Source: Polynucleobacter sp. AP-Sving-400A-A2 (GTDB lineage: Bacteria > Pseudomonadota > Gammaproteobacteria > Burkholderiales > Burkholderiaceae). Taken from it: a stretch of 64,000 nt of DNA. The translations under genes and the position numbers were made by a program. The stretch spans positions 248,001-312,000 of the forward strand of contig NZ_CP061312.1 of the NCBI RefSeq assembly GCF_018688155.1. The letters are read 5' to 3'. Below are positions 29,969 to 56,091 of the stretch, one piece after another (position 1 is the first letter of the stretch; each line of letters opens with the position of its first letter). A model generated the notes under the pieces. That model saw only the letters and a program-made list of their open reading frames with translations. It made no database searches and was not told the origin of the DNA.

Positions 29969-31507
29969 ATGACGACTTCCCAGTCATCTACCTCGACTTC
30001 AGTCTTACCTATCATATTGTGTGGTGGCTCGGGTACTCGCCTCTGGCCCTTATCGAGATCGGGCTTTCCAAAGCAGTTTTTAGTATTGTCTGGCGATGAT
30101 TCGGGCAAGAGCTTATTTCAGCAAGCAATTGAAAGAATTAATGCAATCGGGTCTGCCAATGATTTTGAGCTCGGCCCCACTCTAATTGTTACCAACGAAG
30201 AACATCGTTTTTTGGCTCTCGATCAACTACGAGAACTAAAGGGGGTTCAGGCAAATTTACTGCTTGAGCCTATGGGGCGCAACACGGCGCCGGCGCTTAC
30301 ATTGGCAGCCTTTCAGGCACAAGACTTTGCGGCAAATGCTAGCCCTCAGAAGGGTGATCCAATTTTAGTGATTACGCCTGCCGATCAGACCATTCGCAAT
30401 CAACCAAGCTTTATTAAGTCCTTACAGAATTGCATTGCAACCGTTGAGGCTGACCAATCAAAAAAAACAATTGCCATCTTAGGTGTCACGCCATGCGCCC
30501 CCGAAACAGGCTATGGATACATCAAACGTCAAGGCGATGCTGGTATTCATGGCGAGTTTGATGTGGAGAGATTTATTGAGAAGCCCGATGTCAGTACTGC
30601 TGAGGCTTATTTAAAAGAAGGTGACTATCTTTGGAATAGCGGCATGTTTGTATTGCGTGCTAGCACCTGGCTTGCTGCATTACAAGAATTCAGGCCTGAT
30701 ATTTATATCGCCACTGAGAGTGCTTGGGGTGCGAGGGCGATTGATCAGGCTGGTGACGTTGCTTTTATTAGGCCAGGTGCTGAAATTTTTAAGACAGTTC
30801 CTAGTGAGTCAATTGACTACGCGGTAATTGAGAGGTGTGCGAGCTCAAATGAACTGAATCATTTTTCCGTCAAGATGGTGGAGTTGGATGCCGGCTGGAA
30901 TGACTTGGGTGCATGGAACGCTGTATGGCAAGTTGGCAATCAGGATGAGAATGCTAATGTCATTACCGGTGATGTCATTGTGGATGATGTAAAAAATTCT
31001 TTGATTTATTCCAGCAGTAGGTTGGTTAGTGCTGTTGGAGTTGATGATCTGATTATTGTGGAGACTGCAGATGCAGTTCTAGTTGCTAATAGAAGAAGTA
31101 GTCAGGCTGTAAAGTCGGTTGTTGAGCTTCTTCAGTCCCAGCAGCGAGAAGAGAAAAATTTACACAGAAAAGTCTCAAGACCATGGGGCTGGTATGACAG
31201 TATTGATCAGGGTGATCGCTTCAAAGTAAAGCGAATCCAGGTAAAGCCTGGAGCAAGTCTTTCCTTACAGATGCATGAGCATCGGGCTGAACATTGGGTG
31301 GTTGTTAAGGGTGTAGCTGAGATTACCAATGGCGATCAGGTAATGACATTGACTGAAAATCAAAGTACTTACATTCCCAAAGGGCAAACCCATCGCTTAG
31401 CTAATCCAGGTAAAGATCCCTTAGAAATTATTGAGGTGCAATCGGGCGCTTATTTAGGTGAAGATGATATTGTGCGATTTGAGGATATATATGGGCGGTC
31501 GAAATAA
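29969..31507 (+). CDS. manC: Mannose-1-phosphate guanylyltransferase / mannose-6-phosphate isomerase
   Basis: The bifunctional type II enzyme makes GDP-mannose. The N-terminal pyrophosphorylase domain has GGSGTRLWPLSRSGFPKQF (residues 19-37) and FIEKPD near residue 195. The C-terminal cupin (about 390-512) is the isomerase, with QMHEHRAEHWVVVKG. The 512-residue length is slightly longer than usual because of a Ser/Thr-rich start. It opens the GDP-sugar block and overlaps the next gene by one base. Confidence 0.96.
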   Translation: MTTSQSSTSTSVLPIILCGGSGTRLWPLSRSGFPKQFLVLSGDDSGKSLFQQAIERINAIGSANDFELGPTLIVTNEEHRFLALDQLRELKGVQANLLLEPMGRNTAPALTLAAFQAQDFAANASPQKGDPILVITPADQTIRNQPSFIKSLQNCIATVEADQSKKTIAILGVTPCAPETGYGYIKRQGDAGIHGEFDVERFIEKPDVSTAEAYLKEGDYLWNSGMFVLRASTWLAALQEFRPDIYIATESAWGARAIDQAGDVAFIRPGAEIFKTVPSESIDYAVIERCASSNELNHFSVKMVELDAGWNDLGAWNAVWQVGNQDENANVITGDVIVDDVKNSLIYSSSRLVSAVGVDDLIIVETADAVLVANRRSSQAVKSVVELLQSQQREEKNLHRKVSRPWGWYDSIDQGDRFKVKRIQVKPGASLSLQMHEHRAEHWVVVKGVAEITNGDQVMTLTENQSTYIPKGQTHRLANPGKDPLEIIEVQSGAYLGEDDIVRFEDIYGRSK

Positions 31508-32481
31508 TGACTAGTACTGAAAACTTTGGCTCTCGTACAGCCTTAATTTGCGGTGTAAGTGGTCAAGACGGTAGCTACTTAGCAGAATTACTCTTAAAAA
31601 AGGGATACAAAGTTTTCGGCACCTCCAGAGATGCTCAAGGCTCGTCTTTTTCAAATTTACATACGCTTAGATTAAGGTCCGATATTGAGTGCCTATCCAT
31701 GGTGCCGGAAGACTTTAGAAGTGTTTTGGTAGCATTGAGGAAAAGCAATCCTGATGAAATTTATTATCTTGCTGGCCAATCTTCAGTTGGCCTCTCCTTT
31801 GATCAGCCTGCGGAAACAATTCAAAGCATTACCTTGGGTATGTTGAACATTCTGGAGGGTTGCAGAATGTTAGATCATGACATTAGGCTTTACCATGCTG
31901 GATCTGGTGAATGTTTTGGCGATACTGGCGGCATTCCTGCTAATGAGTCAACCCCGTTCCATCCGATGAGTCCATATGCAGTTGCCAAGTCCTCCGCATA
32001 TTGGTTGGTGAATAATTATAGGGATGCCTATAATTTGTTCGCTTGCACTGGAGTTTTGTTTAATCACGAGTCGCCTTTGCGCCCCGAGCGTTTTGTTACT
32101 CAAAAGATTGTGCGTTCAGTAAAACGTATTGCAGAAGGCAGTCGTGAAAAATTAAGACTAGGACGTCTAGATATTGCAAGAGACTGGGGTTGGGCACCAG
32201 AGTATGTCGAGGCAATGTGGTTGATGTTGCAGCAAGATAAACCACAAGATTTTGTCATAGCTACTGGCTCTACTATTACCTTGGAAGAGTTTGTGGCTGT
32301 AGCCTTTGAGCAGGCTGGTTTGGATTGGAGGGACCATGTTCTCCAGGATCCTAATTTATTTCGCCCAACAGATTTGGGTGTAGGTCGTGCCGATCCCGCA
32401 AGTGCTTTGCAAAAACTGGGGTGGCGTGCATCTATAAGCGGTGTCGATGTCGCTAGAAAAATGTTCCAAGCACTAGTTTAA
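31507..32481 (+). CDS. GDP-mannose 4,6-dehydratase-like SDR enzyme
   Basis: This 324-residue extended SDR has the Gmd-type N-terminus [19 protein letters not shown]. Its active site has SGECFG (Ser and Glu retained) and [12 protein letters not shown] (catalytic Tyr and Lys). It is about 50 residues shorter than the classical Gmd encoded next to it, lacking the C-terminal insertion. It probably makes GDP-4-keto-6-deoxymannose or acts on a related NDP-sugar. A reductase role (Rmd-like) is less likely given the SxE pair. Confidence 0.85.
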
Positions 32482-32513
32482 GTTACAAAAATTTTCGATA
32501 TAAAGATGATGAT

Positions 32514-33644
32514 ATGAAAAACAAACAAAAGACCGCCCTTGTGACTGGAATTACTGGCCAAGACGGCTCCTATTTGGCTGAGTTTTTATTGGAAAAGGGA
32601 TACGTTGTTCATGGTATCAAGCGTCGCGCTTCATCTTTTAACACCGATCGCATTGATCATCTGTATCAAGATCCCCACGTTAACCACCCAGATTTGATAT
32701 TGCATTATGGTGATTTAACTGACACCAGTAATTTAGTGAGCATTATTCAGCAAACTCAGCCTGATGAAATTTATAACTTAGGCGCTCAGAGCCATGTGGC
32801 AGTTTCTTTTGAATCGCCGGAGTACACGGCTGATGTCGATGCAATGGGTCCACTTCGTATGCTGGAGGCTATCCGGATCTTGGGTTTGGAAAAGAAAACT
32901 CGGTTCTATCAAGCTTCTACCTCCGAGCTGTATGGTTTGGTACAAGAAACCCCCCAAAAGGAGAGTACCCCCTTCTACCCTAGGAGCCCGTATGCAGTAG
33001 CCAAGCTTTATGCGTACTGGATTACGGTCAATTATCGTGAGGCATACGGCATGTATGCGTGTAACGGCATCCTCTTTAATCATGAGTCGAAGCGACGTGG
33101 TGAAACTTTTGTAACGCGAAAGGTAACGCGTGGACTAGCCAACATTGCTCAAGGGTTAGAAAAATGTCTTTATATGGGCAATATTGATGCTCTTCGGGAT
33201 TGGGGGCATGCAAAGGATTATGTCCGTATGCAATGGTTGATGTTGCAACAAGAAAAGCCTGAAGATTTTGTCATTGCCACGGGTATTCAGTTTACCGTTA
33301 GGGAGTTTATTGTTCGCAGTGCAAAGTTGCTCGGTATTACCCTAAGGTTTGAGGGGGTTGCCGAGCAAGAGAAGGCGGTGGTTGTTCAAATCGATGGAAA
33401 TAAAGCACCCGCTTTGAAGGTTGGGGATGTGATTGTGCAAATTGATCCTCGCTACTATCGCCCGACCGAGGTCGAGACACTTTTGGGAGATCCATCAAAG
33501 GCAAAAGAAAAGCTTGGATGGATTCCTGAGATTACTCTGGATGAGATGATTCAAGAGATGATCGAAAATGATTTGGATAAGGCTAGACAACATGCCTTAC
33601 TTAACAAGCATGGATATTCAGTATCTGTCGGTAAAGAAAACTGA
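32514..33644 (+). CDS. gmd: GDP-mannose 4,6-dehydratase
   Basis: Gmd converts GDP-mannose to GDP-4-keto-6-deoxymannose. Key segments are [47 protein letters not shown] (Ser/Glu pair) and [12 protein letters not shown]. The C-terminal half carries the family insertion that includes [17 protein letters not shown]. Length 376 residues. It sits between the shorter Gmd-like gene and fcl. Confidence 0.97.
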
Positions 33645-33662
33645 TTGCCCTAAGTTAAATAT

Positions 33663-34661
33663 ATGACATCCAACTTACACCAAAAGATTTACGTGGCCGG
33701 TCATCGAGGCATGGTTGGATCAGCCATTGTCAGAAATTTACAAGCTAAGGGCTATCTTAATATCCTGACAAGAACACATGCTGAGTTGGATTTAACAAAT
33801 CAGCTAATGGTAGAAAATTTCTTTAAGCAAGAAAAGCCTGATCAAGTTTACTTAGCTGCCGCAAGGGTGGGCGGGATCCACGCTAACAATACCTTCCCAG
33901 CCGAATTTATCTATGAGAATTTGATGGTTCAGAGTAATGTGATTCATCAATCTTTTATGAGTGGCGTCAAAAAGCTATTATTTTTAGGTTCGAGCTGCAT
34001 CTACCCTAAGTTGGCACCACAACCAATGAATGAGGCTGCCTTACTCACAGGTAAGTTGGAGCCTACGAATGAGCCTTATGCCATTGCAAAGATTGCAGGA
34101 ATTAAGATGTGTGAAAGCTACAACCGTCAGTTTGGAATTTCGCACAACATTGACTACCGATCGGTAATGCCAACAAATTTATATGGCCCCGGTGATAACT
34201 ATCACCCTGAAAATAGCCACGTTATTCCTGCTCTTATTAGGCGGTTTCATGAAGCTAAAGTAAATAAATTTCCGGAAGTTGTAATTTGGGGAACTGGGTC
34301 CCCAAGGCGTGAGTTTTTATACGTTGATGATATGGCTGCAGCATCTGTATTTGTGATGGAGTTGGATAAGTCGGTATATGACCAACATACTGAACCAATG
34401 CAAAGTCATATTAATGTTGGCTCTGGTTCTGATATCACCATTGCGGAGTTAGCTGAGGCTATTTCTAAAGCTGTAGGTTTTAAGGGGGAGATTCAATTTG
34501 ATCCAGAAAAGCCTGATGGCGCACCACGAAAGTGGATGGATAGTTCGAAGTTGGCCGCCTGGGGGTGGGAGCCGAAAATACCTTTAGATATTGGAGTGCC
34601 AATTACTTACGCCGCTTTTTTAAAAAATTCTCCATATTGTGGCTTCGTTGAAGCTCTATAG
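33663..34661 (+). CDS. fcl: GDP-L-fucose synthase
   Basis: Fcl epimerises and reduces GDP-4-keto-6-deoxymannose to GDP-L-fucose using NADPH. It has the Rossmann start [27 protein letters not shown] and [16 protein letters not shown], with the catalytic Ser, Tyr and Lys. Length 332 residues. With manC and gmd it completes a GDP-fucose route. Confidence 0.97.
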
Positions 34662-34732: not shown

Positions 34733-36253
34733 ATGCTCATCAATATTATTCAATATCTTGAAAATTCAATTAAGAGGCACCCTCAAAAGATTGCGGTTCA
34801 GCAGGGAGATGTCTTAATTACCTTTTATGAATTAGGGGTGAGATCAAAATCTATCGCAAGAAAAATACTTGAGAGAACTTGTGAAATAAACAAACCCATA
34901 GCCGTCTTTTTGCCAAAATCAGTCTCGTCTGTATTGGGAGATTTAGGCATCACTTATAGTGGCAATGCTTATATGAATTTAGATGTAAGAGCTCCTGATG
35001 AGCGATTAAGTGCAATTCTTCATCACATACAACCAGCACTCCTGATAACTGATAATGCAAATTATCACAGAGCAAAAAAATTGTATTCCAACGAACTGGT
35101 GTTGAATATTGATGATATGAATTTCAATGAAGGGGTTGAGGTTCTTGAGAAAAATGTAGTCGATTTCATAATTGATCAAGACCCTTACTGCATCATCAAT
35201 ACTTCCGGATCAACCGGCACTCCGAAATCTGTAGTGTTGAATCACAAAAGCTTTATAGATTTTATAGAATGGTCTGTGGAAAAATTTAAATTTGATGAGG
35301 GCATCAAAATAGGATCTTTATCCCCATGCATTTTTGACATATACACCTACGAAATATGTTTAATGTGCGCTAAAGGGGTTACCTTATATTTGATTCCAGA
35401 GGAATACTCCACATTCCCGGTAAAAATTATCAACTATCTTGAGGATGAGGGTATTAACTTCATTTTTTGGGTGCCAACAATCATGGTGAATATTGCAAAT
35501 TTTGACTTGCTGGGTGAGAGGCGCTTGAAATTGGATGTAGTTTGGTTTGCGGGAGAGGTTTTCCCTACAAAGCAGTTTAATTATTGGCGAGGAAAGCTCC
35601 CAACAACTACCTTTGTAAATATGTATGGCCCGATTGAAATTACATTGGATTGCACCTATTTTATTGTGAATAGAGAAATCGAGGATGATGAGCCGATTCC
35701 AATTGGGATCGCTTGTCAAAATACCGATGTAATTATTTTGAATGAATTTAATCGACAGGTGAAATCGGCAAATGAAGAAGGGGAGTTATGTGTTCGTGGA
35801 ACCTCTCTGGCTATGGGCTATTACAACAATCCCGAGGGCACTAAAAGTGCGTTCGTACAAAATCCATTAAACAAAAGCTATCCGGAGTTAATTTACAGAA
35901 CCGGTGATTTAGTTACGCTAAACGGCTTTGGTGAAATTGTCTATAAGGGTAGGAAAGATACCCTAATTAAGCACTTAGGATACAGGATTGAATTGGGAGA
36001 GATAGAGCATGTTTGCGTAAATGTGCTAAAAATAGTGCTTAACTGTTGTGCGCTATACAGGGAGAGTGAGAAAAGGATTGTGTTGATCTATGAGTCTGAT
36101 GTTGAGCTTGAAGATAAGGTTCTCAGGACTGCTTTAGCGCGAGTGCTTCCTAGATATATGGTCCCCCATATTTATATCCACAAAAAACAGTTACCAATGA
36201 ATCCAAACGGGAAGATTGATCGCTTGAGAATCAAAGAGGGTGAATTAAGTTGA
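34733..36253 (+). CDS. Stand-alone amino-acid adenylation protein (NRPS A-domain family)
   Basis: The 506-residue protein is a complete AMP-forming adenylation domain: TSGSTGTPKS (residues 157-166), FD at 201-202 followed by IYTYE, MYGPIE (297-302), YRTGDL (388-393), GRKD (406-409) and NGKIDR (492-497). The Asp of the FD motif normally holds the substrate alpha-amino group, which suggests an amino acid. No condensation, carrier or thioesterase domain is fused. It starts a coupled run: the next gene overlaps by 4 bp, then comes a separate carrier protein. The likely role is to load an amino acid onto that carrier. The substrate is unknown. Confidence 0.9.
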   Translation: MLINIIQYLENSIKRHPQKIAVQQGDVLITFYELGVRSKSIARKILERTCEINKPIAVFLPKSVSSVLGDLGITYSGNAYMNLDVRAPDERLSAILHHIQPALLITDNANYHRAKKLYSNELVLNIDDMNFNEGVEVLEKNVVDFIIDQDPYCIINTSGSTGTPKSVVLNHKSFIDFIEWSVEKFKFDEGIKIGSLSPCIFDIYTYEICLMCAKGVTLYLIPEEYSTFPVKIINYLEDEGINFIFWVPTIMVNIANFDLLGERRLKLDVVWFAGEVFPTKQFNYWRGKLPTTTFVNMYGPIEITLDCTYFIVNREIEDDEPIPIGIACQNTDVIILNEFNRQVKSANEEGELCVRGTSLAMGYYNNPEGTKSAFVQNPLNKSYPELIYRTGDLVTLNGFGEIVYKGRKDTLIKHLGYRIELGEIEHVCVNVLKIVLNCCALYRESEKRIVLIYESDVELEDKVLRTALARVLPRYMVPHIYIHKKQLPMNPNGKIDRLRIKEGELS

Positions 36254-37083
36254 AAATAGTATTTTGTGGTGAGGATCGATTCAGTGCTGTAGTGTTGGAC
36301 TCACTCGGAAAAGGTCCACATAGCGTGGAGCTGGCCATCTCTCCTTGGTATGAGAATTTTATTTATAAAAAGATGGAGCGCAGCGCATCTCTCTTAGGTG
36401 TTAAATACATGCGCTTTAAAGACATTAAATCATTTGAATTTGAGTCTGAGTTACGAAATATTCGTCCTGATTTGCTAATCACCTGCCATTTTCAAAAAGT
36501 ATTGCCAAAGGAAATTATTGACATTCCAAATTTTGGCTGCATAAACCTTCACCCCTCCTTATTGCCGAGGTATCGTGGAATGAGTCCTCAGCACTGGCCA
36601 ATTATTAATGGAGATTTTGAAACGGGTATTACGATCCACTATATTGATGAGGGGGTAGATACTGGAAACATTCTTGTCCAAGAGACGGTCTATTTGGACG
36701 GTGAATGCTATGTAGCAGACTTGCAAAATAAAATGATGGAAATGTATCCCAGAATGATTGCGAGAGCAATTGAGTTAGTTGCCTCTGGAAATCTGGGCTC
36801 CAAGCAAAATAATGTAGGGTCCTCGTACTATGGAAGATTAAAAATTCAAGACGTAACGATCAAAACTGAGGTGGGGGTGGAGGCGGCCCATGGGATGATT
36901 CGAGCGGCTTCCAGACCATATTTTGGCGCTAGATTTGAAGATCTTATTATCTGGAAAGCTAAAATAGCCTCTGATAATATTAACAATACTTATCTCAATC
37001 TAGGGTTAAATAAAGTGGGGGCTGATTACTATTTAAAGCTAAAGGATGGGAACATTTTATTAGAAAGTTTCGATATATTATGA
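36250..37083 (+). CDS. Formyltransferase (Fmt-type fold)
   Basis: This 277-residue protein has the N10-formyl-THF-dependent transferase core: N99 and H101 in INLHPSLLPRYRG, and D137 in DEGVDTG, which are the catalytic Asn-His-Asp. A C-terminal domain of about 90 residues follows, as in Fmt or ArnA-like enzymes. It is too divergent and too badly placed to be housekeeping Fmt. It starts with TTG overlapping the adenylation gene and ends overlapping the carrier protein by 4 bp. It may formylate an aminoacyl-carrier intermediate, as the F domain of LgrA does, or a sugar amine. The first is favoured by position. Confidence 0.87.
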   Translation: MKIVFCGEDRFSAVVLDSLGKGPHSVELAISPWYENFIYKKMERSASLLGVKYMRFKDIKSFEFESELRNIRPDLLITCHFQKVLPKEIIDIPNFGCINLHPSLLPRYRGMSPQHWPIINGDFETGITIHYIDEGVDTGNILVQETVYLDGECYVADLQNKMMEMYPRMIARAIELVASGNLGSKQNNVGSSYYGRLKIQDVTIKTEVGVEAAHGMIRAASRPYFGARFEDLIIWKAKIASDNINNTYLNLGLNKVGADYYLKLKDGNILLESFDIL

Positions 37084-37316
37084 ATGAAATAAAAAATAAG
37101 ATTCATCAAATCCTCCTAAGTATTAGGCCGGATTTGGTTTTTGATGAAAATGTCAACTATATTGATGATGGCTATTTTGATTCATTTGATATCGTTACCA
37201 TTGTGAGTGAATTAGAGATGATGTTTGGTATAAAAATATCTGGCTTAGATGTTCTTCCTGAGAATTTTAATAATACTGAGAAAATTATAAGATTGGTAGA
37301 GAGAACAATGAAATGA
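37080..37316 (+). CDS. Acyl/peptidyl carrier protein
   Basis: The 78-residue helical protein has the phosphopantetheine site in YFDSFDIVTIV, with Ser35 as the attachment residue. The DSF rather than DSL form is seen in stand-alone carriers of amino-acid pathways. Its start overlaps the formyltransferase stop (ATGA) and its stop overlaps the KAS III start. It should carry the activated amino acid from the upstream adenylation protein. I saw no phosphopantetheinyl transferase in this window. Confidence 0.88.
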   Translation: MNEIKNKIHQILLSIRPDLVFDENVNYIDDGYFDSFDIVTIVSELEMMFGIKISGLDVLPENFNNTEKIIRLVERTMK

Positions 37317-38380
37317 TTTTTGAGTATGCTGATAAATATATCTCTGGAGTACTAACTATTTTGCCAAAAAATAGCGTTAACTTTAAAGATGAGTTAGCTA
37401 ACTATGCATTTTCTGAAAAGCAATCCTTGAAGCTTGCGAGCATAATGGGGTTGGATAAAAGGAGGGTGGCAATTCCTGGAACTTGCTCATCAGATCTATG
37501 TTTGGCTGGACTACTTTATTTGATTGATAAAAAGTTGCTTGATAGGGATGAAATTGACGCTCTACTTTTTGTTAGTCAAACTCCGGACTATCAGATGCCC
37601 CCTACTAGTAACTTGCTGCATGGAAAATTGGGTTTGAGCAGCAATGTGGTTTGTTTGGATATCAATCAAGGTTGCGCTGGATTTATAGTTGGCTTAATAC
37701 AGGCCTTTCAATTGCTTGACCAAAAGAAGGTTAATCAGGTTGTGCTTTTGAATGTGGATGTTCTCAGTCCGAAAGTTTCACCTGATGATAGAAATAGCGC
37801 CCCATTGATTGGGGATGCCGCCTCCATAACAATTATCAAAAAGAATAATGGATTGAATGCTGCGATAATTGCATCATTAAAAATGGATGGTAAAGGTGCA
37901 ATGGCCTTAAATATCCCCGCTGGATTGGCTAGAATGCCTTATTCCCCTGAAACTGAAGTTATGTATCGAGACGATAGTGGGAATTCTAGAAGTCTAAATC
38001 ATCTTGTTATGCATGGGGACCAGGTATTTAACTTTGTTATGAACAGTGTGCCACCTCTGGTTCGTGAAATTCTCGAGGAGTCTGGCGAGACGATTGATTC
38101 AATTGATAAATTTATTTTCCACCAGCCAAATAAATTTATGCTTGAAAAATTAGCTGATGAATTGTCTATTGAGTATGCAAAGCTTCCCTCTAATACGGTC
38201 GGCTTGTATGGGAATTCAAGTGGCGCAACGATTCCGGTTACATTAGTACATAATTTCTCCAAACAATTATTAAGTGAAACTATGAAAATATGTTTTTGTG
38301 GCTTTGGTGTTGGTCTTGCGTGGGGAGCGACAATTTTAAATGTCGGTAAATTAGATTTTTGCGAAATGTTGGAGGTGTAA
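37313..38380 (+). CDS. 3-oxoacyl-ACP synthase III (FabH)-family condensing enzyme
   Basis: The 355-residue thiolase-fold protein has the KAS III triad: C121 in NQGCAGFIVGL, H270 in FHQPNKFMLEKL and N301 in LYGNSSGATIPVTL. FabH-type enzymes condense a primed acyl unit with malonyl-ACP to a 3-oxoacyl-ACP. It lies between two carrier-protein genes, with a 4-bp overlap upstream and a 1-bp overlap downstream. It may condense the product on the first carrier with a malonyl unit on the second. It is less similar to housekeeping FabH around the primer pocket. Confidence 0.9.
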   Translation: MIFEYADKYISGVLTILPKNSVNFKDELANYAFSEKQSLKLASIMGLDKRRVAIPGTCSSDLCLAGLLYLIDKKLLDRDEIDALLFVSQTPDYQMPPTSNLLHGKLGLSSNVVCLDINQGCAGFIVGLIQAFQLLDQKKVNQVVLLNVDVLSPKVSPDDRNSAPLIGDAASITIIKKNNGLNAAIIASLKMDGKGAMALNIPAGLARMPYSPETEVMYRDDSGNSRSLNHLVMHGDQVFNFVMNSVPPLVREILEESGETIDSIDKFIFHQPNKFMLEKLADELSIEYAKLPSNTVGLYGNSSGATIPVTLVHNFSKQLLSETMKICFCGFGVGLAWGATILNVGKLDFCEMLEV

Positions 38381-38601
38381 TGGAATTTTTTCTTAGTAAG
38401 TTGGCTGATTTGTTGGAGGTTGATGAACTCTCCCCATCGGATAATTTTTGTAATTTTGACGCTTGGGATTCTTTGACAATCCTGTCAATTATCGCTTGGT
38501 GTAAAGCTGACTACAACATAAGCTTGACATCAAAGGAAATCATAGAATTACAGAGCCCTGAAAAACTGTTTGCTTTCATAAGCTCAAAAAGTCAAAATTA
38601 A
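38380..38601 (+). CDS. Second acyl carrier protein
   Basis: The ATG at 38380 overlaps the KAS III stop (TAATG) and has GGAGGT 4 bp upstream, so it is the start. The 73-residue product has the site FDAWDSLTIL with Ser31. An open frame begins earlier at 38359 but that part is antisense to good spacing. It probably carries the malonyl or beta-keto intermediate handled by the reductases that follow. Confidence 0.86.
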   Translation: MEFFLSKLADLLEVDELSPSDNFCNFDAWDSLTILSIIAWCKADYNISLTSKEIIELQSPEKLFAFISSKSQN

Positions 38602-38602
38602 G

Positions 38603-39358
38603 ATGGAGTCCCCCACCTTTAGCGGTAAGAATGTTCTAGTTACAGGTGCTGGCTCTGGTATAGGTAGGCAGATTTCGCTCGATTTAGCTAGCTTGGGCGC
38701 ATTTATTTATCTGCTGGATATCAATAAGGATGGGTTATGTGAAACGGCGAAATTATGTAAGAGTGAAAAAATCAAGATTATTCATGCCGATCTCTGCGAG
38801 TTTGGTGCTCTTGAGGATATTTTGATTGCGGCATTAGAGGGTGAGCGTTTGGATGGGCTTGTTCATTGTGCTGGAGTATCTCAATTATCCCCCCTAAAAT
38901 CACTAGACATGGATAGGGCGCTTAATACGTATCTTATAAATAGCCATGCAGCCATTTTTTTGTCAAAATTTTGCTCTTCATATAGGGTGATCTCAAAATT
39001 AGGCGCCTCATTTGTATTTATATCTTCAATATATGGACAAGTTGGATCAGCTGCAAATTCGGCGTATGCAATGTCAAAATCCGCCATTACAGGGCTCGTC
39101 AAATCTTTAGCAATAGAATTGGCGCCAAAAAAGATTAGAGTAAATTCTATCGTTCCTGGATTTATTGAAACGTCAATGCTAAATAAGCTGTCCGAAAATT
39201 TTGACGCCGAATACGTTGATAGATTGAGAGCGCTTCACCCCCTTGGGTTGGGTGGGGTTTCTGATGTTTCTAACGCCATCGTATTTCTACTATCACAAAA
39301 ATCAAGATGGATAACAGGATCTGAGCTTGTAGTAGACGGGGGCTATACAGCGCAATGA
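38603..39358 (+). CDS. SDR-family oxidoreductase (FabG-like), first of two
   Basis: The classical SDR of 251 residues has TGAGSGIG (residues 14-21) for NAD(P), CAGVSQLSP, the catalytic Ser in VFISSIYGQ and the YAMSK pair. It ends SRWITGSELVVDGG. FabG-like SDRs reduce 3-oxoacyl-ACP to 3-hydroxyacyl-ACP. Its place after KAS III and the carrier protein fits that reaction. It overlaps the next SDR by 4 bp. Confidence 0.88.
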   Translation: MESPTFSGKNVLVTGAGSGIGRQISLDLASLGAFIYLLDINKDGLCETAKLCKSEKIKIIHADLCEFGALEDILIAALEGERLDGLVHCAGVSQLSPLKSLDMDRALNTYLINSHAAIFLSKFCSSYRVISKLGASFVFISSIYGQVGSAANSAYAMSKSAITGLVKSLAIELAPKKIRVNSIVPGFIETSMLNKLSENFDAEYVDRLRALHPLGLGGVSDVSNAIVFLLSQKSRWITGSELVVDGGYTAQ

Positions 39359-40104
39359 GTTTAATTAAATTTACATTGGTAACTGGAGCAACTTCAGGAA
39401 TCGGCAGGGAGGTGATCCACCGATTACAAGATGATAGCAGGCTTATAATTCATGGAAGAGATCTACAAAAATTACAAAATATCCAATCCGAATTGAAGCG
39501 TCCTGATGATCACTTGATCTGGAATCATGATTTGGTGAATACGGTGAATGTCGAGCAGTCAATTTCTGATCTGCTTACGTTAAATAACATTACTGTTGAT
39601 AAATTTGTTCATAGCGCTGGGATTATGCAGTTAAAGCCTCTTAAGATGCTTAACCACTTGGATTTCTCTGAAATTTTTAATATTAATGTGGTTTCTGCTG
39701 CGCTAATTGTTAAATCCTTGGCATCCCAAAAAGTTAACTCTAGTAATCTCAGATCAGCTGTTTTTATTTCAAGTAATTTAAGTGGTTCAGGTGCTAAAGC
39801 ATTAAGTAGCTACGGTGCCTCAAAATCTGCATTAGATGGATTAATGGCGTGCCTATCTGTTGAATTAGCGCCAAAAGTTAGAATTAACTCGGTGCTTCCT
39901 GGTGCAATTTATACCGCTATGACATCCAGCATTTTGGGGGATGAGGATAAAAAAAATAGGATGGAGGCAGCTTATCCGCTAGGATTGGGGTTAACAACCG
40001 ATATAGCTGATACTGTTGCCTTTTTATTGTCCGATAAATCTAGGTGGATAACTGGACAAAAAGTTGTTGTTGATGGTGGCAGATCAATCAATCTAACGGG
40101 TTAA
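39355..40104 (+). CDS. SDR-family oxidoreductase (FabG-like), second of two
   Basis: This 249-residue SDR has TGATSGIG, SAGIMQLKPL, an active-site Ser in VFISSNLSG and YGASK. Its C-terminus (SRWITGQKVVVDGG) mirrors that of the neighbouring SDR, and both share the unusual PLGLG segment before the last helix. The pair may be an old duplication with separate roles, for example reduction and dehydration-type steps. The specific substrate cannot be read from the sequence. Confidence 0.87.
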   Translation: MSLIKFTLVTGATSGIGREVIHRLQDDSRLIIHGRDLQKLQNIQSELKRPDDHLIWNHDLVNTVNVEQSISDLLTLNNITVDKFVHSAGIMQLKPLKMLNHLDFSEIFNINVVSAALIVKSLASQKVNSSNLRSAVFISSNLSGSGAKALSSYGASKSALDGLMACLSVELAPKVRINSVLPGAIYTAMTSSILGDEDKKNRMEAAYPLGLGLTTDIADTVAFLLSDKSRWITGQKVVVDGGRSINLTG

Positions 40105-40107
40105 AAA

Positions 40108-40752
40108 ATGAGTCAAAAAGGGTTGATAGTTGTAGGTAGTGGGGCTCTCGCAGCTGAGTGCGTTGAAACTATTAAGTGCTTTGATGATTTGGAAGTTGAG
40201 GGCTATTTAGATGATGGTGGTTATGAAAACTACCAAAACAATAAAGCAAGGTATGGCTACAAGGAAGAGTATTTAGGCACAACTTTTGAATATAAATTCA
40301 AAGAAAGTCAGAATGTGCTGGTTGCATTCTCTACAGGTAAGAAGCGGGAATTTTTTCAGACGTTACTTGGTAAAAAAGTCAATCTAGAAAACCTAATACA
40401 CCCGAGTGTAAAAATTCCTGACTCAGTGAAAATGGGTGTTGGCAATATAGTAGGTCAGAATGTCGTTATTGGCCCAAATGTAAAAATTGGGGATGGAAAT
40501 GTATTTACCGCTTACAGCTTCATAAGCCATGATTGTCAAATTGATAGTTACAATTTTTTTTCTACTGCTGGATTGGCGGGCGGGGTAATTGTTGGAAGTT
40601 CAAATTTTTTTGGCATTAGATCAACCGTAATTCCAAAAATTAGAATTGGAGATGAAAACACCATTCAAGCTGGCATGGTGATTGATAAGAATGTTGAAAA
40701 TGGCAGCACTATTTTTTACAAATACAAAGAAAGTATAATTATAATTAGCTAA
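40108..40752 (+). CDS. NeuD/PglD/VioB-family sugar N/O-acyltransferase
   Basis: The 214-residue protein has the NeuD architecture: an N-terminal Rossmann-like half (LIVVGSGALAAECVETI) and a left-handed beta-helix of hexapeptide repeats (about residues 95-200). The likely catalytic His is H141 in SHDCQIDSYN. Family members acylate the C4 amine of UDP-, dTDP- or GDP-linked 4-amino-6-deoxy sugars (PglD, VioB, PerB) or sialic acid (NeuD). Its place after the carrier-protein block suggests it may use an unusual acyl donor. It begins 3 bp after the second SDR. Confidence 0.86.
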   Translation: MSQKGLIVVGSGALAAECVETIKCFDDLEVEGYLDDGGYENYQNNKARYGYKEEYLGTTFEYKFKESQNVLVAFSTGKKREFFQTLLGKKVNLENLIHPSVKIPDSVKMGVGNIVGQNVVIGPNVKIGDGNVFTAYSFISHDCQIDSYNFFSTAGLAGGVIVGSSNFFGIRSTVIPKIRIGDENTIQAGMVIDKNVENGSTIFYKYKESIIIIS

Positions 40753-41003: not shown

Positions 41004-42125
41004 ATGATGAGTAGAATTCTAGTTACCAAACCATTTCTTCCGCCTTTGGACGAATTTATGCCATATCTACAAGAGATTTGGAATAGTGGCGTCATAACAA
41101 ATGGTGGAAAATTTCATCAAGAGCTAGAAGATGAGCTAGCTAGATATTTGGGTGTCAGCAACATTTCATTATTTTCTAATGGAACGATTGCTTTAATTAC
41201 TGCTTTGCAGGCCCTGGGAATTAGGGGGGAAGTTATTACTACACCTTATTCATTTGTTGCAACTGCACATTCATTGCTTTGGAATAATATTAAGCCAGTA
41301 TTCGTAGATGTTGATCCAAAAACTTTAAATTTGGACCCACAAAAGATTGAAGATGCAATTACATCCAATACAACTGCGATTCTCCCCGTCCATTGCTATG
41401 GGAATCCATGCGATGTCGAAAATATCGAATTAATTGCTAAAAAGCATAATCTAAAAGTAATTTACGATGCAGCCCACGCATTTGGAGTGCAGTGTCATTG
41501 CGGGAGCATTCTCAATCATGGCGATCTATCAATTCTCAGTTTTCACGCTACCAAGGTATTTAATACATTTGAAGGTGGGGCAATAATTTCAAAAGATTTG
41601 GAAATGAAGCAAAAAATTGATCAATTAAAAAACTTTGGTTTTGTTGATGAGCTAACCGTTACAACTGCCGGCATCAATGGCAAGATGAGTGAAATTAATG
41701 CAGCTTTTGGATTGCTGCAACTTAAGTATGTAGATAAGGTCATTCAGCAGCGCAAGCTAATTGATGCTGCGTACAGGAAAAAATTATCTGGAATAAGCGG
41801 CATGCGCTGCCTTGATGCAAGTGAAGCGTCGGTTGCAAATTATTCATACTTTCCGATACTTGTTGAGCAAAATGCTGAAATAGACAGAGATTCCCTATAT
41901 CAAAAGCTAAAAGATAAAGAGATTTATTCAAGACGGTATTTTTATCCTTTAATTAGCAAATTCCCCATGTATTCTGGATTACCATCTGCAAGGGATGAGA
42001 ACTTAAAGCATGCAATTCAGGCTGCAGCTCAGGTGCTTTGTTTGCCTATTTATCCAGAGCTTACCATTGACCAACAAGATTTTATTTGTAATGTCATTCT
42101 AGAGGAATTAGGAAATACTAAATGA
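41004..42125 (+). CDS. DegT/DnrJ/EryC1-family sugar aminotransferase
   Basis: The PLP-dependent enzyme of 373 residues (or 372 from the second Met) has the Schiff-base lysine K184 in SFHATKVFNTFEGG and the PLP-binding D155 in YDAAHAFG. It resembles VioA, PerA and FdtB enzymes that place an amino group at C4 or C3 of 4- or 3-keto-6-deoxysugars. The upstream Gmd enzymes make GDP-4-keto-6-deoxymannose, so GDP-perosamine is a reasonable product. A dTDP-linked substrate cannot be excluded, though rml genes are absent here. It overlaps the next gene by 4 bp. Confidence 0.88.
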   Translation: MMSRILVTKPFLPPLDEFMPYLQEIWNSGVITNGGKFHQELEDELARYLGVSNISLFSNGTIALITALQALGIRGEVITTPYSFVATAHSLLWNNIKPVFVDVDPKTLNLDPQKIEDAITSNTTAILPVHCYGNPCDVENIELIAKKHNLKVIYDAAHAFGVQCHCGSILNHGDLSILSFHATKVFNTFEGGAIISKDLEMKQKIDQLKNFGFVDELTVTTAGINGKMSEINAAFGLLQLKYVDKVIQQRKLIDAAYRKKLSGISGMRCLDASEASVANYSYFPILVEQNAEIDRDSLYQKLKDKEIYSRRYFYPLISKFPMYSGLPSARDENLKHAIQAAAQVLCLPIYPELTIDQQDFICNVILEELGNTK

Positions 42126-42913
42126 AATTTAATGCTCCAATTAAGTTCATGAATGAGGCAATTAACTCGGGCGCTTTAGATGCAAGGGTACTCAATATGG
42201 AAGTTCTCGATTATTTCGGTATGTATGTTCTGCGTAAAGCAATCGATAGCAAAACTATTGAGCGCTACTATCGTGAATATAAGAGTTATCAAAATTCAGA
42301 TCATTTCAATCGTACTAATTTTCATTTAACCGAGGTTGGGGTCGAGGACGGCAATCCATTGAGGGAGATTTTAAAGAATGCCCAATTATTGAAATCCATT
42401 GAAAAATTCTTTTTGGGTAATGTTGGGTTATATAACTTTAGAATTGTTAAGAAGGATGCGGAAGATTTTTCCCCGGTTTTCTTGCATCAAGATGTCGGTT
42501 ATCATAAGGGCGGGTTTGAACGCTACTCATTATTTATACCGCTGACAAGGTGTTGGGTTGAAAACGGCGGTCTAAAACTATATCCAGGAACGCATAAGTT
42601 TGGATATTTGGGTGATGTTGGGGAGATTAGAGATTTTTTACCAGCAGCCTATCCGCGCCTAACGCCTGAATTGTTTCCAGGCGATATTTTATTTATGCAT
42701 TCTGCACTTTGGCATTCGTCCGGCGAAAATTTAAGTGGCGAGGAGCGAGTGTACCTCGATGTTCATATTCAGGATGCAAATGAACCATCAAGTTCTCAGA
42801 CGTTAACTGGAGCAAGTGATGGCCAGTGGATTTTGAATTTGAGCCATGATGAAATTTTTTCTAATTCTAGATCTCAAAAATTAAAAGCTCTCTATCAGAA
42901 AATTCAGGAATAA
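42122..42913 (+). CDS. Phytanoyl-CoA dioxygenase (PhyH)-family protein
   Basis: The 263-residue protein has the Fe(II) site HQD (H122, D124) in FLHQDVGYHKGG and the distal HSALWHSSGENL (His198 most likely), followed by R209, which should bind 2-oxoglutarate. The family hydroxylates diverse small molecules and carrier-bound substrates. It overlaps the aminotransferase gene by 4 bp, so it may modify the sugar or its acyl group. The substrate is unknown. Confidence 0.83.
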   Translation: MKFNAPIKFMNEAINSGALDARVLNMEVLDYFGMYVLRKAIDSKTIERYYREYKSYQNSDHFNRTNFHLTEVGVEDGNPLREILKNAQLLKSIEKFFLGNVGLYNFRIVKKDAEDFSPVFLHQDVGYHKGGFERYSLFIPLTRCWVENGGLKLYPGTHKFGYLGDVGEIRDFLPAAYPRLTPELFPGDILFMHSALWHSSGENLSGEERVYLDVHIQDANEPSSSQTLTGASDGQWILNLSHDEIFSNSRSQKLKALYQKIQE

Positions 42914-47888: not shown

Positions 47889-48383
47889 ATGATTAGACAT
47901 ATAGTTAATATTTTCTTATGGTTTCTTCCGCCAACAAGATTATTTCTGTTGCGAAATTTTCTCCTAAAGATTGCCGGTATTAGATTGGGTCGAAACGTTA
48001 GATTTTGTGGGCGCTCCTGGATTTACGGCCGAGGGGATTTACTTATTAGTCACGACACTTGGATTAGTCCAGGTGCAATTATTTTCACTCATGAGAGTGT
48101 AGCTATCAATATTGGCTCTCAGTGCGATATTGGGCCGGGCGTAGAGTTCATCACCGGCAGTCATGATATTGGCACCTCGCTTAGACGTGCCGGAAATGGG
48201 TTTGCAAAAGCAATCACTGTGGAAGATGGGGTTTGGATCGGAGCTAAGAGCATTATCTTAGGTGGAGTCACTATTGGATCTGGATCAATCATTGCGGCTG
48301 GTTCTTTGGTTAGATCTGATGTGCCACCCAATTCATTGGTTGCTGGAGTTCCAGCAGTAGTTAAGCGATCTCTGCCTCTATGA
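47889..48383 (+). CDS. WcaF/WbbJ-type hexapeptide acetyltransferase
   Basis: The 164-residue protein has an amphipathic N-terminal helix (FLWFLPPTRLFLLRNFLLKIAG) and a left-handed beta-helix with TGSHDIGTS, EDGVWIGAKSIILGG and the terminal GVPAVVKR. These features are typical of serine/sugar O-acetyltransferases acting in exopolysaccharide synthesis. It overlaps the next gene by 4 bp. Confidence 0.87.
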   Translation: MIRHIVNIFLWFLPPTRLFLLRNFLLKIAGIRLGRNVRFCGRSWIYGRGDLLISHDTWISPGAIIFTHESVAINIGSQCDIGPGVEFITGSHDIGTSLRRAGNGFAKAITVEDGVWIGAKSIILGGVTIGSGSIIAAGSLVRSDVPPNSLVAGVPAVVKRSLPL

Positions 48384-54562: not shown

Positions 54563-55303
54563 ATGTCACATATCAGAATTAACGACCTTTCGATCCAGTT
54601 CAAAATTTATCACAATCGAACCCCTTCCTTGAAGGAGTCTTTTGCAAACATCTTTAATCGAAAAATGATGATTGGCGCTGAGGATTTTTTTGCCCTTAAG
54701 AATGTATCGCTGGAGATTAATTCGGGTGAAAGAGTTGGCATTATTGGAGCGAACGGAGCTGGAAAAAGTACTTTGTTAAAAGCCCTTTGTCGTATATATG
54801 AGCCATCTAGTGGGTGGATTGCCGTCCATGGAAATATTGCTCCATTATTGGAGGTTGGTGCTGGATTTCATCCTGAATTTACAGGTAGGGAAAATCTATT
54901 CTTTAATGGCTCAATACTGGGGTTTTCTAAGTCGGATTTAAAAAATTACGAAGAGCAAATTATTAAATTTGCAGAGATTGAGCAATTCATTGATACGCCA
55001 GTGAAATATTATTCGACAGGCATATATTTGAGGTTAGCATTTTCGATCGCCACTGCTGTTCAGCCCGACATTTTGGTTCTTGATGAATTATTTGCTGGTG
55101 GTGATGCGAGCTTTATTAAAAAAGCAACTGAGAGAATGAATCAAATGATAAATAAATCAAATATTATGGTGATGGTTTCGCATGATCCAAGTTTGTTGAT
55201 GCAGTTTTGTGATCGAGTAATTTGTATTGAGCATGGCGTAGTTGTCGATGATGGCGCATCAAAAGTTGTTATCGATCAGTATCTCAAAAGATCATTGGGT
55301 TGA
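54563..55303 (+). CDS. Polysaccharide ABC transporter ATPase, Wzt type (no C-terminal extension)
   Basis: The 246-residue ATPase has Walker A GANGAGKST (near residues 62-70), the signature region YYSTGIYLRLAFSIA and Walker B ILVLDELFAGGD. It ends just after the ATPase domain, so it lacks the carbohydrate-binding domain seen in the O8/O9a-type Wzt. Such short forms are used in KpsT-like capsule export and in some O-antigen systems. It follows the permease by 2 bp. Confidence 0.92.
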   Translation: MSHIRINDLSIQFKIYHNRTPSLKESFANIFNRKMMIGAEDFFALKNVSLEINSGERVGIIGANGAGKSTLLKALCRIYEPSSGWIAVHGNIAPLLEVGAGFHPEFTGRENLFFNGSILGFSKSDLKNYEEQIIKFAEIEQFIDTPVKYYSTGIYLRLAFSIATAVQPDILVLDELFAGGDASFIKKATERMNQMINKSNIMVMVSHDPSLLMQFCDRVICIEHGVVVDDGASKVVIDQYLKRSLG

Positions 55304-55305
55304 TT

Positions 55306-56091
55306 ATGATTAATATAATAAACGTAGAGGCCTCCCTCAAAAATTTTAAAGGGGCTATCCCTTTTGATCACTGCATAGTTGATAATTTTTTTACAGAATA
55401 TTTTGCAAGAAAAATATCAGATGAGTATCTTGATTATGACTCTGATAAATGGTTTTGCTACCAGAATCCAATTGAGGATAAAAAAGCATTAAATGACTGG
55501 AACGCTTTTCCACCAACTACATATAAAAGTTTTTTTAGACTACAGTCAGATGAATTTGTGCAGTTATTGTCAGCCGCCGTTGGAGAGAGGCTTTATGTTG
55601 ATCATGGGCTTCATGGTGGTGGATGGCACATCCATAGCACCGGCGGAATTTTAAACCCTCATTTGGATTACTCCATTCACCCCAAAGTGGGTCTACAAAG
55701 GCGGTTAAACATCATTATTTATCTCTCAAAAGAGTTGGACCCTAAGAATCATGGCGGACATCTGGGTTTGTGGGGTCATGATCCTTCAACCAATAGGCCT
55801 AAGAGCTTGGAGAGAGAGATCGAACCCTTATTTAATCGCGCCGTTATTTTTGATACTACTCAAAATTCTTGGCATGGAATGAGTAGGCCACTGACTCAAC
55901 CAGCTGGAATTTATCGAAAAAGTTTGGCAATTTATTATCTTTGTCAGCCTGCCAGTAATGCATCACAAGTCGGCCGCGCATTATTTGCTCCCCGAGAGAA
56001 TCAAATGAACAATTCTGAGGTAGAGGAAATTATTCGTTTACGGTCTGATGTAGATACATCATCTCAAGTTTATATAGCGAAAGAAAAATAA
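55306..56091 (+). CDS. 2OG-Fe(II) oxygenase-family protein
   Basis: The product has a double-stranded beta-helix core with HLDYSIHP (iron His and Asp near residues 119-121), RRLNIIIYLS and a distal WHGMSRPL His. It has about 261 residues from the ATG at 55306 (a TTG at 55300 is also open). Family members hydroxylate peptides or sugars. Its place after Wzt suggests it modifies the exported glycan or its terminal residue. It overlaps the next gene by one base. Confidence 0.8.
   Translation: MINIINVEASLKNFKGAIPFDHCIVDNFFTEYFARKISDEYLDYDSDKWFCYQNPIEDKKALNDWNAFPPTTYKSFFRLQSDEFVQLLSAAVGERLYVDHGLHGGGWHIHSTGGILNPHLDYSIHPKVGLQRRLNIIIYLSKELDPKNHGGHLGLWGHDPSTNRPKSLEREIEPLFNRAVIFDTTQNSWHGMSRPLTQPAGIYRKSLAIYYLCQPASNASQVGRALFAPRENQMNNSEVEEIIRLRSDVDTSSQVYIAKEK

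Follow-up and report, generated by a model that had tools for sequence, protein, structure and literature searches.

Why would a bacterial glycan locus contain free-standing enzymes of the kinds that start and extend chains in antibiotic megasynthases? This question is raised by a 64,000-nucleotide stretch of the genome of Polynucleobacter sp. AP-Sving-400A-A2 (NZ_CP061312.1, positions 248,001 to 312,000; hereafter "the window", with positions counted from its first letter), in which separate genes for an amino-acid adenylation protein (A), a formyltransferase (F), a carrier protein (CP1), a ketoacyl synthase III-type enzyme (KAS III), and a second carrier (CP2) follow one another. An initial annotation, made from the sequence alone, suggested that A, F, and CP1 form a stand-alone formylating initiation module and that KAS III may extend its product by a malonyl unit. 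This suggestion is supported by the comparisons described here, because the cassette is conserved in seven further loci, F is exchanged with a GNAT-type acyltransferase within one slot, and capping enzymes are linked with KAS III. The annotation left out the reductases and the N-acyltransferase, which indicate the likely destination of the module.

We propose that the cassette joins, in dissociated (type II) form, a formylating start module like that of peptide synthetases to an extension step of the polyketide kind, the product being an N-acyl substituent of a surface sugar. The best reading is that a formyl-aminoacyl primer is used by KAS III, which we hold to be fairly probable; the whole pathway, in which an N-formyl-aminoacyl group is extended and placed on a sugar amine, also seems reasonably probable. 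The sequences themselves show the order of the genes, the conservation of the cassette, its intact catalytic residues, and the replacement of F by a GNAT; from them we infer every reaction, the order of the steps, the malonyl extender, the amino acid, and the sugar.

A conserved cassette and its relatives

The conserved cassette consists of A, F, CP1, KAS III, CP2, one or two short-chain reductases (SDRs), and an N-acyltransferase. In the window, the first five are intact, co-oriented open reading frames (ORFs) at the positions originally assigned to them, and their coordinates bear out the reported overlaps of 1–4 bp: KAS III and CP2 share 1 bp, and the other three pairs of neighbours share 4 bp. 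The CP2 ORF is open from a TTG at 38359 (38359–38601), and ATG 38380 is the more likely start, from which both the 1-bp overlap and the original numbering of Ser31 follow. The span first given to the unit, 34733–38601, does hold the five genes and is too short; the unit reaches at least 40752 and probably runs on to the end of the DegT gene at 42125. Downstream of the five genes are two SDR genes, a NeuD-type transferase gene, the DegT gene, and a PhyH-like gene.

A search with F over a collection of genomes from 84,980 species retrieved seven loci (L011–L017), four from Bacteroidota and one each from Neomarinimicrobiota, a Treponema, and a gammaproteobacterium. A lies beside or near F in all seven, and each of the six loci whose contigs continue past F also carries one or more SDRs together with CP1, KAS III, and CP2. 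The gene order of the window is kept in most of them, the exceptions being L014, in which A is divergent, and L015, which is rearranged with A 2 kb from F. The seven F-fetched loci come from four phylum-level lineages, and the five families first noticed together in the window co-occur in the six with longer contigs. Searches with an alignment of A in overlapping groups of 395, 121, 344, 369, 178, and 165 genomes yielded, through A alone, five more loci with KAS III: L043, L063 (whose CP2 was spotted by eye and is not above the phmmer threshold), L101, L102, and L103. L101 has the order A-F-CP1-KAS III-CP2-SDR1-SDR2-MBL-NeuD-DegT, which is that of the window with the insertion of a metallo-beta-lactamase (MBL)-fold gene, and L102 has the order A-GNAT-CP1-KAS III-CP2-SDR1-SDR2-MBL-NeuD. 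The distances of A, F, KAS III, SDR2, and CP1 are correlated across 7–11 loci (r 0.67–0.86; as high in 1–32 of 2000 permutations).

The sugar genes around the cassette differ from locus to locus. L017 lies among genes that by eye resemble the Pse pathway (an aminotransferase and PseF-, PseG-, and PseH-like genes); Pfam recognizes a NeuB-family gene there and gave no match for the PseG-like one. L014 and L016 adjoin an Antibiotic_NAT-type acyltransferase (called by Pfam in L014 and L017, and by likeness to L017 in L016), a DegT gene, and a sugar-dehydratase-like gene. To judge by these neighbours, the cassette is tied to amino-sugar loci and apparently to no single sugar, and its use on amino sugars is strongly suggested by this context.

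Several groups of matches were not taken as relatives. Matches to A in L074–L080 (340–474 bits), stand-alone ones in L025, L027–L033, L037, and L038, and multidomain ones in L024, L034–L036, and L039–L042 were judged to be other families. Phage proteins resembling A were set aside as well (the best 10 of 38 are at most 39.5% identical, and all are below 60%); four "Bacteriophage sp." records from human faeces (MT837917, MT837966, MT837947, and MT836540) encode A-like proteins 36–39.5% identical to that of the window. Plasmid matches to F were also rejected (the best 10 of 405 are 27–30% identical, and all 405 are below 60%), as were viral-contig loci, of which the best 80 of 206 are at most 40% identical and cover part of F only.

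A GloB-like MBL-fold hydrolase accompanies the cassette in six of the 12 KAS III loci (L011, L017, L043, L101, L102, and L103); that of L101 weakly resembles SolJ of solanimycin.

The proposed capping slot and its link with KAS III

In L043, L063, L102, and L103, a GNAT occupies the slot between A and CP1, and the fold was assigned by Pfam in these four proteins and in the GNAT of L015. The nearest curated model for the GNATs of L102 and L103 is RimI, at 34 and 30 bits, far below the cut-off of 86; RimI acts on an alpha-amine. The slot GNAT is probably an acetyltransferase that caps with acetyl. In a tree built from A, KAS III, and CP1 of 11 loci, with F and GNAT excluded from the build, L101 (F) is the sister of L103 (GNAT; support 1.0), L012 (F) of L102 (GNAT; 0.757), and L015 (both F and GNAT) of L063 (GNAT; 1.0). 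The pairing of F-type with GNAT-type loci indicates that the two have been exchanged repeatedly within one slot, and this natural swap is the strongest line of evidence. Since two unrelated acyltransferases alternate at one and the same site, flanked by the gene that loads the amino acid and that of the carrier, the exchange is best explained if F and the slot GNAT mask the same amine.

To see how far capping goes with extension, 37 loci, made up of the window, the F-fetched loci, and A matches with long flanks, were compared, and KAS III was counted if it lay within 8 kb of A. KAS III is present in 12, and all 12 have a putative capping gene: F (seven loci), a slot-type GNAT (four), or both (one). 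The five KAS III loci that the A searches alone brought in each have F or a slot-type GNAT. From the 25 loci without KAS III, L013 (with F), L064 (with GNAT), and L100 were left out, as their contigs end just past A or the next gene. The remaining 22, which are not independent (15 come from the Spirochaetota and Treponema-family searches), lack F and slot-type GNATs in 21 cases; the other is L077, which belongs to a different A family and has a weak F-like match (1e-13) 1.4 kb from A. This KAS III-less set includes L065, with A, CP1, and Antibiotic_NAT-like and NeuB-like genes (by likeness to those of L017), and Treponema-family loci in which A and CP1 are joined by genes that resemble MBOAT and DltD by eye. 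A further 21 A loci with short flanks (L024, L025, L027–L042, L056, L097, and L098; L077–L080 reappear among these in shortened form, as four loci) have no KAS III, F, or slot-type GNAT within about 4.5 kb. Capping genes thus accompany KAS III and are nearly absent where it is lacking, which suggests that amino-acid loading alone needs no cap, whereas extension seems to.

Two kinds of KAS III-less loci are worth describing in their own right. In the Treponema family, L066–L073, L108, and L109 combine a relative of A (code DVK(I/V)(M/L)SLCNK) and a DltC-like carrier, mostly with a LysA/alanine-racemase-like pyridoxal-phosphate enzyme between them (Pfam Orn_Arg_deC in L066, the others by eye), and several lie beside MBOAT- and DltD-like genes; these loci look like Dlt-type systems that bring along an enzyme to make their amino acid. 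At L065 (8324–10931), a carrier, A, and an Antibiotic_NAT-like transferase are adjacent, with a NeuB-like gene near; KAS III, F, and slot-type GNATs are all absent, an arrangement that suggests transfer of an aminoacyl group straight to a sugar amine.

From the enzymes to a proposed route

A matches Pfam AMP-binding (181 bits) and scores 296 bits with the amino-acid adenylation model TIGR01733, slightly below its cut-off of 317.4. It reaches 267 and 257 bits with two DltA models, below their cut-offs of 476 and 559.85, so that the DltA NCBIfam equivalog (257 of 559.85) is not reached. The pocket positions were placed by the core motifs, and the code was simply read from the motif alignment. 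Asp235 and Lys517, in what we take to be the appropriate numbering, are kept wherever A is complete, in 11 of the 12 KAS III loci (that of L011 is incomplete). Because of this Asp235, an amino acid is the expected substrate and a fatty or aryl acid is disfavoured, as the annotation of A as an amino-acid activator had assumed. The code of the window, DIYFWAMLDK, belongs to a pattern, DI(Y/H/F)FWA(L/M)LDK, that is shared with L012, L017, L063, and L101–L103; L014 and L016 have DNLF(I/L)ALVDK, and L015 has DHFFWALVDK. The large Phe/Trp side chains that line this code suggest a small substrate. A would adenylate a small (at a guess, neutral) amino acid and load it onto CP1.

CP1 has no Pfam match and scores 29 bits with the DltC model (cut-off 68), and CP2 matches PP-binding at 28.5 bits. 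The modifiable serines annotated as Ser35 and Ser31 are present in every aligned homologue (14 of 14 for CP1, 12 of 12 for CP2). The host genome has one AcpS-family phosphopantetheinyl transferase, which would have to prime both carriers.

F matches Formyl_trans_N (108 bits), and the catalytic residues N99, H101, and D137, correctly located from the start, are invariant in all eight aligned F sequences. It would transfer a formyl group from formyl-tetrahydrofolate to the alpha-amine of the amino acid bound to CP1. By sequence it scores 94 bits against ArnA, 92 against Fmt, 80 against WbkC, and 59 against LgrA. Its predicted model (pLDDT 89) fits Fmt and ArnA over its full length (TM about 0.9; mostly 0.88–0.91 with ArnA, including the C-terminal domain) and WbkC across 227–236 columns; Fmt and ArnA are the best of the 50 fold matches listed, among which there is no LgrA entry. 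The comparison with LgrA made at the outset holds for the formylating logic of A, F, and carrier and fails for the F domain itself, which is nearer Fmt/ArnA and has a C-terminal domain.

As F is equally near to Fmt and to ArnA, a sugar enzyme, in both sequence and fold, the alternative arises that F is a sugar-nucleotide N-formyltransferase of the WbkC/ArnA kind, acting on the DegT product, while A, the carriers, and KAS III serve something else. N-formyl-perosamine loci contain a GDP-mannose 4,6-dehydratase and DegT, as does this locus, and GNATs are also able to act on sugar amines, so that the slot exchange alone is compatible with such a role. However, the cassette F proteins are separate in the tree from the Fmt and ArnA-like proteins of E. 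coli and the host, A is present in all seven F-fetched loci although their sugar genes vary, and the F gene overlaps its neighbours A and CP1 by 4 bp on either side. Moreover, if F took the one DegT-made amine, the NeuD-type enzyme and the whole cassette would be left without an obvious target. We consider a sugar substrate of F quite unlikely.

Returning to the extension of a formyl-aminoacyl primer, KAS III would take this primer from CP1 and condense it with malonyl on CP2, the malonyl being supplied, as we assume, by FabD acting in trans. The enzyme matches ACP_syn_III_C (73 bits), and the annotated triad C121, H270, and N301 proved invariant in all eight aligned sequences; Arg151 is kept as well. 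Its model has a thiolase fold (pLDDT 82, with two stretches below 50), and its nearest solved relatives, which are also the best fold matches, are the Burkholderia enzymes 4efi (195 bits) and 3gwa (163 bits; its organism is our assumption), at 30–33% identity. Position 32 of FabH, which we take to be the CoA-stacking residue, is Trp in E. coli and host FabH and Lys/Arg in all eight cassette enzymes; the loss of Trp32 is consistent with a carrier-bound primer. In L012 (3164–5533), a single cassette contains two KAS III genes, as for two extension rounds.

A primer from CoA is the premise of another explanation, in which two acyl products are made: an N-formyl-aminoacyl group by A, F, and CP1, and a 3-hydroxyacyl group from acetyl-CoA by KAS III, CP2, and the SDRs, destined for different amines or joined as a hydroxyacyl-aminoacyl group. 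O-antigens are known to bear substituents of either kind (excerpts of PMC10059132 and PMC3210612), and in GNAT-type loci the GNAT could join the two. Against this, KAS III lacks both Trp32 and Arg36 of FabH, capping genes are almost confined to the loci that have KAS III, and we know of no F-family enzyme that can transfer a hydroxyacyl group. The window locus has one NeuD-type N-acyltransferase and one DegT; its second hexapeptide gene (47889–48383) is O-acetyltransferase-like by eye. Two separate products are unlikely.

In the preferred pathway, extension of the capped primer is followed by reduction of the 3-oxo product by SDR1/SDR2. SDR2 is matched in 10 of the 12 KAS III loci, SDR1 in seven, and some SDR in all 12, and the Tyr-x3-Lys motif is kept in all 15 aligned cassette SDRs of both kinds. 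A further alternative would have the capped keto intermediate cyclised rather than reduced, for example to an oxazole, or the formyl group serve as temporary protection. Formyl-glycyl starters do become oxazoles in conglobatin and oxazolomycin (excerpt of PMC4504003), and the MBL-fold hydrolases found in half of the KAS III loci would suit cyclisation or protection. The SDRs in all 12 loci instead favour reduction; no MBL gene lies near A in the window, and there is no cyclodehydratase-like gene among the ORFs listed, in which no search aimed at cyclodehydratases was made. This alternative is very improbable.

The last steps of the pathway favoured here, that of the extended and reduced formyl-aminoacyl group, would be the installation of a 4-amine on a 4-keto-6-deoxy sugar by DegT and the acylation of this amine by the NeuD-type enzyme, with the 4-(formylamino)-3-hydroxyacyl group carried by CP2. 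The NeuD-type enzyme has weak matches to the structures of PerB (54 bits) and PglD (51 bits) and keeps the conserved His in six of six sequences. A C-terminal GNPA(K/R), which presumably has a role with CoA, is kept in L015 and L043 and altered in the window, L101, L102, and L103. The best solved match of DegT is 2po3, which we take to be DesI, followed by perosamine synthetases. Two strong DegT genes are found in the host genome, one here and one at 1458027 beside an ArnA-like formyltransferase, together with three weak matches (23–37 bits). With a single DegT in the locus, one new sugar amine would arise there, and the NeuD-type enzyme would be its natural acyltransferase; if it takes this amine, none is left for F, which argues for the action of F on a carrier-bound amino acid. 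The DegT of the window is 59% and 57% identical to the A-adjacent DegT proteins of L100 and L103. Set beside its 28% identity to that of L101, these values indicate that the sugar step accompanies the cassette in some loci only.

Several observations weigh against this pathway, in addition to the nearness of F to ArnA: (i) the code of the window A fits, to our knowledge, no known specificity, and that of L043, DAKLMSLSVK, is unlike those of the other KAS III loci; (ii) L015 (8947–10724, Treponema), with apparently intact genes for both F and a slot-type GNAT, is left unexplained by a simple either-or cap; (iii) seven of the 12 KAS III loci (the window and six F-fetched ones) have F by construction; (iv) only GNATs like the slot GNATs were counted, and other GNAT-type genes lie near some KAS III-less A loci, such as one found by eye 1 kb from A in L072; (v) the entire KAS III subfamily may lack Trp32; (vi) no dedicated malonyl transferase was seen; (vii) two SDRs for a single ketone is one too many; and (viii) the low identity to the L101 DegT means that the sugar step is not fixed, and GlcNAc-type sugar amines are also possible targets.

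Genomic setting and known systems

The features of the locus are collected in Table 1. The host genome is a single contig of 2.03 Mb. The G+C content is 0.456 in positions 1–29968 and 0.440 across the GDP-mannose genes; it falls to 0.379 within the cassette, is 0.386 over the remaining part of the locus up to 58265, and returns to 0.462 beyond. As the rest of the locus is similar, the low value of the cassette is common to the whole variable locus. A was found in one of 121 searched genomes of the genus, the host itself, and, together with the low G+C content, this indicates that the stretch was probably acquired. In 399 genomes of the order, F was matched at E≤1e-30 in four: its own gene and three of 30–31% identity, which were dropped as they group with Fmt in the tree. 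Two different genes of the GDP-mannose 4,6-dehydratase type stand in tandem (31507–32481 by Pfam, 32514–33644 by eye). Non-haem iron oxygenase genes (PhyH and 2OG-Fe(II) families) lie at 42122–42913 and 55300–56091; hydroxylation of an acyl group or a sugar is possible.

Table 1. Features of the window around the cassette
Feature	Position	Strand	Basis
GDP-mannose genes: ManC, two GMD-type dehydratases, Fcl; possible 4-keto sugar source	29969..34661	+	Pfam for 31507–32481; ManC, GMD (32514), and Fcl by eye
A: stand-alone amino-acid adenylation protein, 506 aa	34733..36253	+	Pfam/NCBIfam profiles, pocket motif alignment
F: Fmt/ArnA-fold formyltransferase, 277 aa, TTG start; probable N-capping enzyme	36250..37083	+	Pfam, fold, alignment
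CP1: DltC-like carrier, Ser35; probable aminoacyl carrier	37080..37316	+	DltC model, alignment
KAS III: C121/H270/N301, without FabH Trp32 and Arg36	37313..38380	+	Pfam, alignment, fold
CP2: second carrier, Ser31 counted from ATG 38380	38380..38601	+	PP-binding, alignment
SDR1: short-chain reductase, probable ketoreductase	38603..39358	+	profiles, alignment
SDR2: second short-chain reductase	39355..40104	+	profiles, alignment
NeuD/PglD/PerB-type hexapeptide N-acyltransferase; probable CP2-to-sugar-amine transfer	40108..40752	+	profiles, structure matches
DegT sugar aminotransferase, sole DegT of the locus	41004..42125	+	solved-structure match

We judge it only just on the probable side of even that a portable type II peptide–polyketide cassette, present in several phyla, places N-capped 4-amino-3-hydroxyacyl groups on surface sugars, with a formyl (folate) or acetyl (CoA) cap exchangeable by a one-gene swap that would vary the surface epitope between neighbouring lineages. 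If this is true, it represents a novel mode of glycan decoration in bacteria, in which two logics of antibiotic megasynthases, the formylated amino-acid starter and ketosynthase extension, are run by small separate proteins on surface sugars. Nuclear magnetic resonance studies can seek the class of glycan substituents that is thereby predicted. Free-standing enzymes that load, cap, and extend an aminoacyl group lend themselves to study more readily than megasynthases do; F and the GNAT are a natural pair for testing why a free alpha-amine needs masking ahead of carbon–carbon extension.

Word searches of open-licence PMC papers found none that joins these steps in one dissociated glycan-locus cassette. 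A possible parallel in the flagellin locus of Campylobacter (Cj1303–Cj1308) drew no useful paper from such searches, and no weight is placed on it. Parts of the proposed product have counterparts: an N-formyl-L-alanyl group is known on the O2 antigen of Vibrio anguillarum (excerpt of PMC10059132), and N-[(R)-3-hydroxybutyryl]-L-alanyl, 3-hydroxybutyryl, and many other acyl variants occur on marine O-antigens (excerpt of PMC3210612). The closest parallel in a glycan locus is wfpC–G of Flavobacterium psychrophilum, in which an acyl group made by ketosynthases is held by a carrier and, by prediction, passed to the 4-amine of a sugar by a homologue of PglD (excerpt of PMC6519341). Both loci have a carrier, ketoacyl synthase (two in wfp), reductase, and PglD-like transferase, which in the window stand together with a sugar aminotransferase; the likeness is drawn from the gene descriptions. 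The wfp product, however, is 3,5-dihydroxyhexanoyl, and the excerpt names no amino-acid adenylation protein, formyltransferase, or aminoacyl carrier (PMC6519341). DltA and DltC likewise pair a stand-alone adenylation protein with a small separate carrier, but A is far below the DltA cut-offs, and no MBOAT gene was noticed by eye in the listed stretch of the window. The sugar N-formyltransferases (ArnA/WbkC) differ in another way: F shares the fold and the C-terminal domain of ArnA, but it comes with A in every F-fetched locus.

The start of the pathway is best compared with LgrA of linear gramicidin, in which the carrier-bound starter is formylated and there is no extension without formylation (excerpt of PMC4504003). 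LgrA likewise has an amino-acid adenylation function, a formyltransferase, and a carrier, and formylation of the carrier-bound starter is what we propose for the cassette. In LgrA, however, F, A, and carrier are fused and a condensation domain comes next, whereas the cassette has three separate ORFs followed by KAS III. The passage from a formylated starter to a ketosynthase has its precedents in conglobatin and oxazolomycin, where a formyl-glycyl-carrier starter is proposed to be passed to a ketosynthase with malonyl extension; in conglobatin, an F domain is proposed to act on a glycyl-carrier at the polyketide start, and whether ring closure comes before or after malonyl condensation is left open (excerpt of PMC4504003). 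Those systems are modular megasynthases that make free oxazole products, whereas the cassette consists of discrete enzymes with reductases in a glycan locus. The proposed chemistry has modular precedents; the combination is novel, and the natural swap of the cap makes it directly testable.

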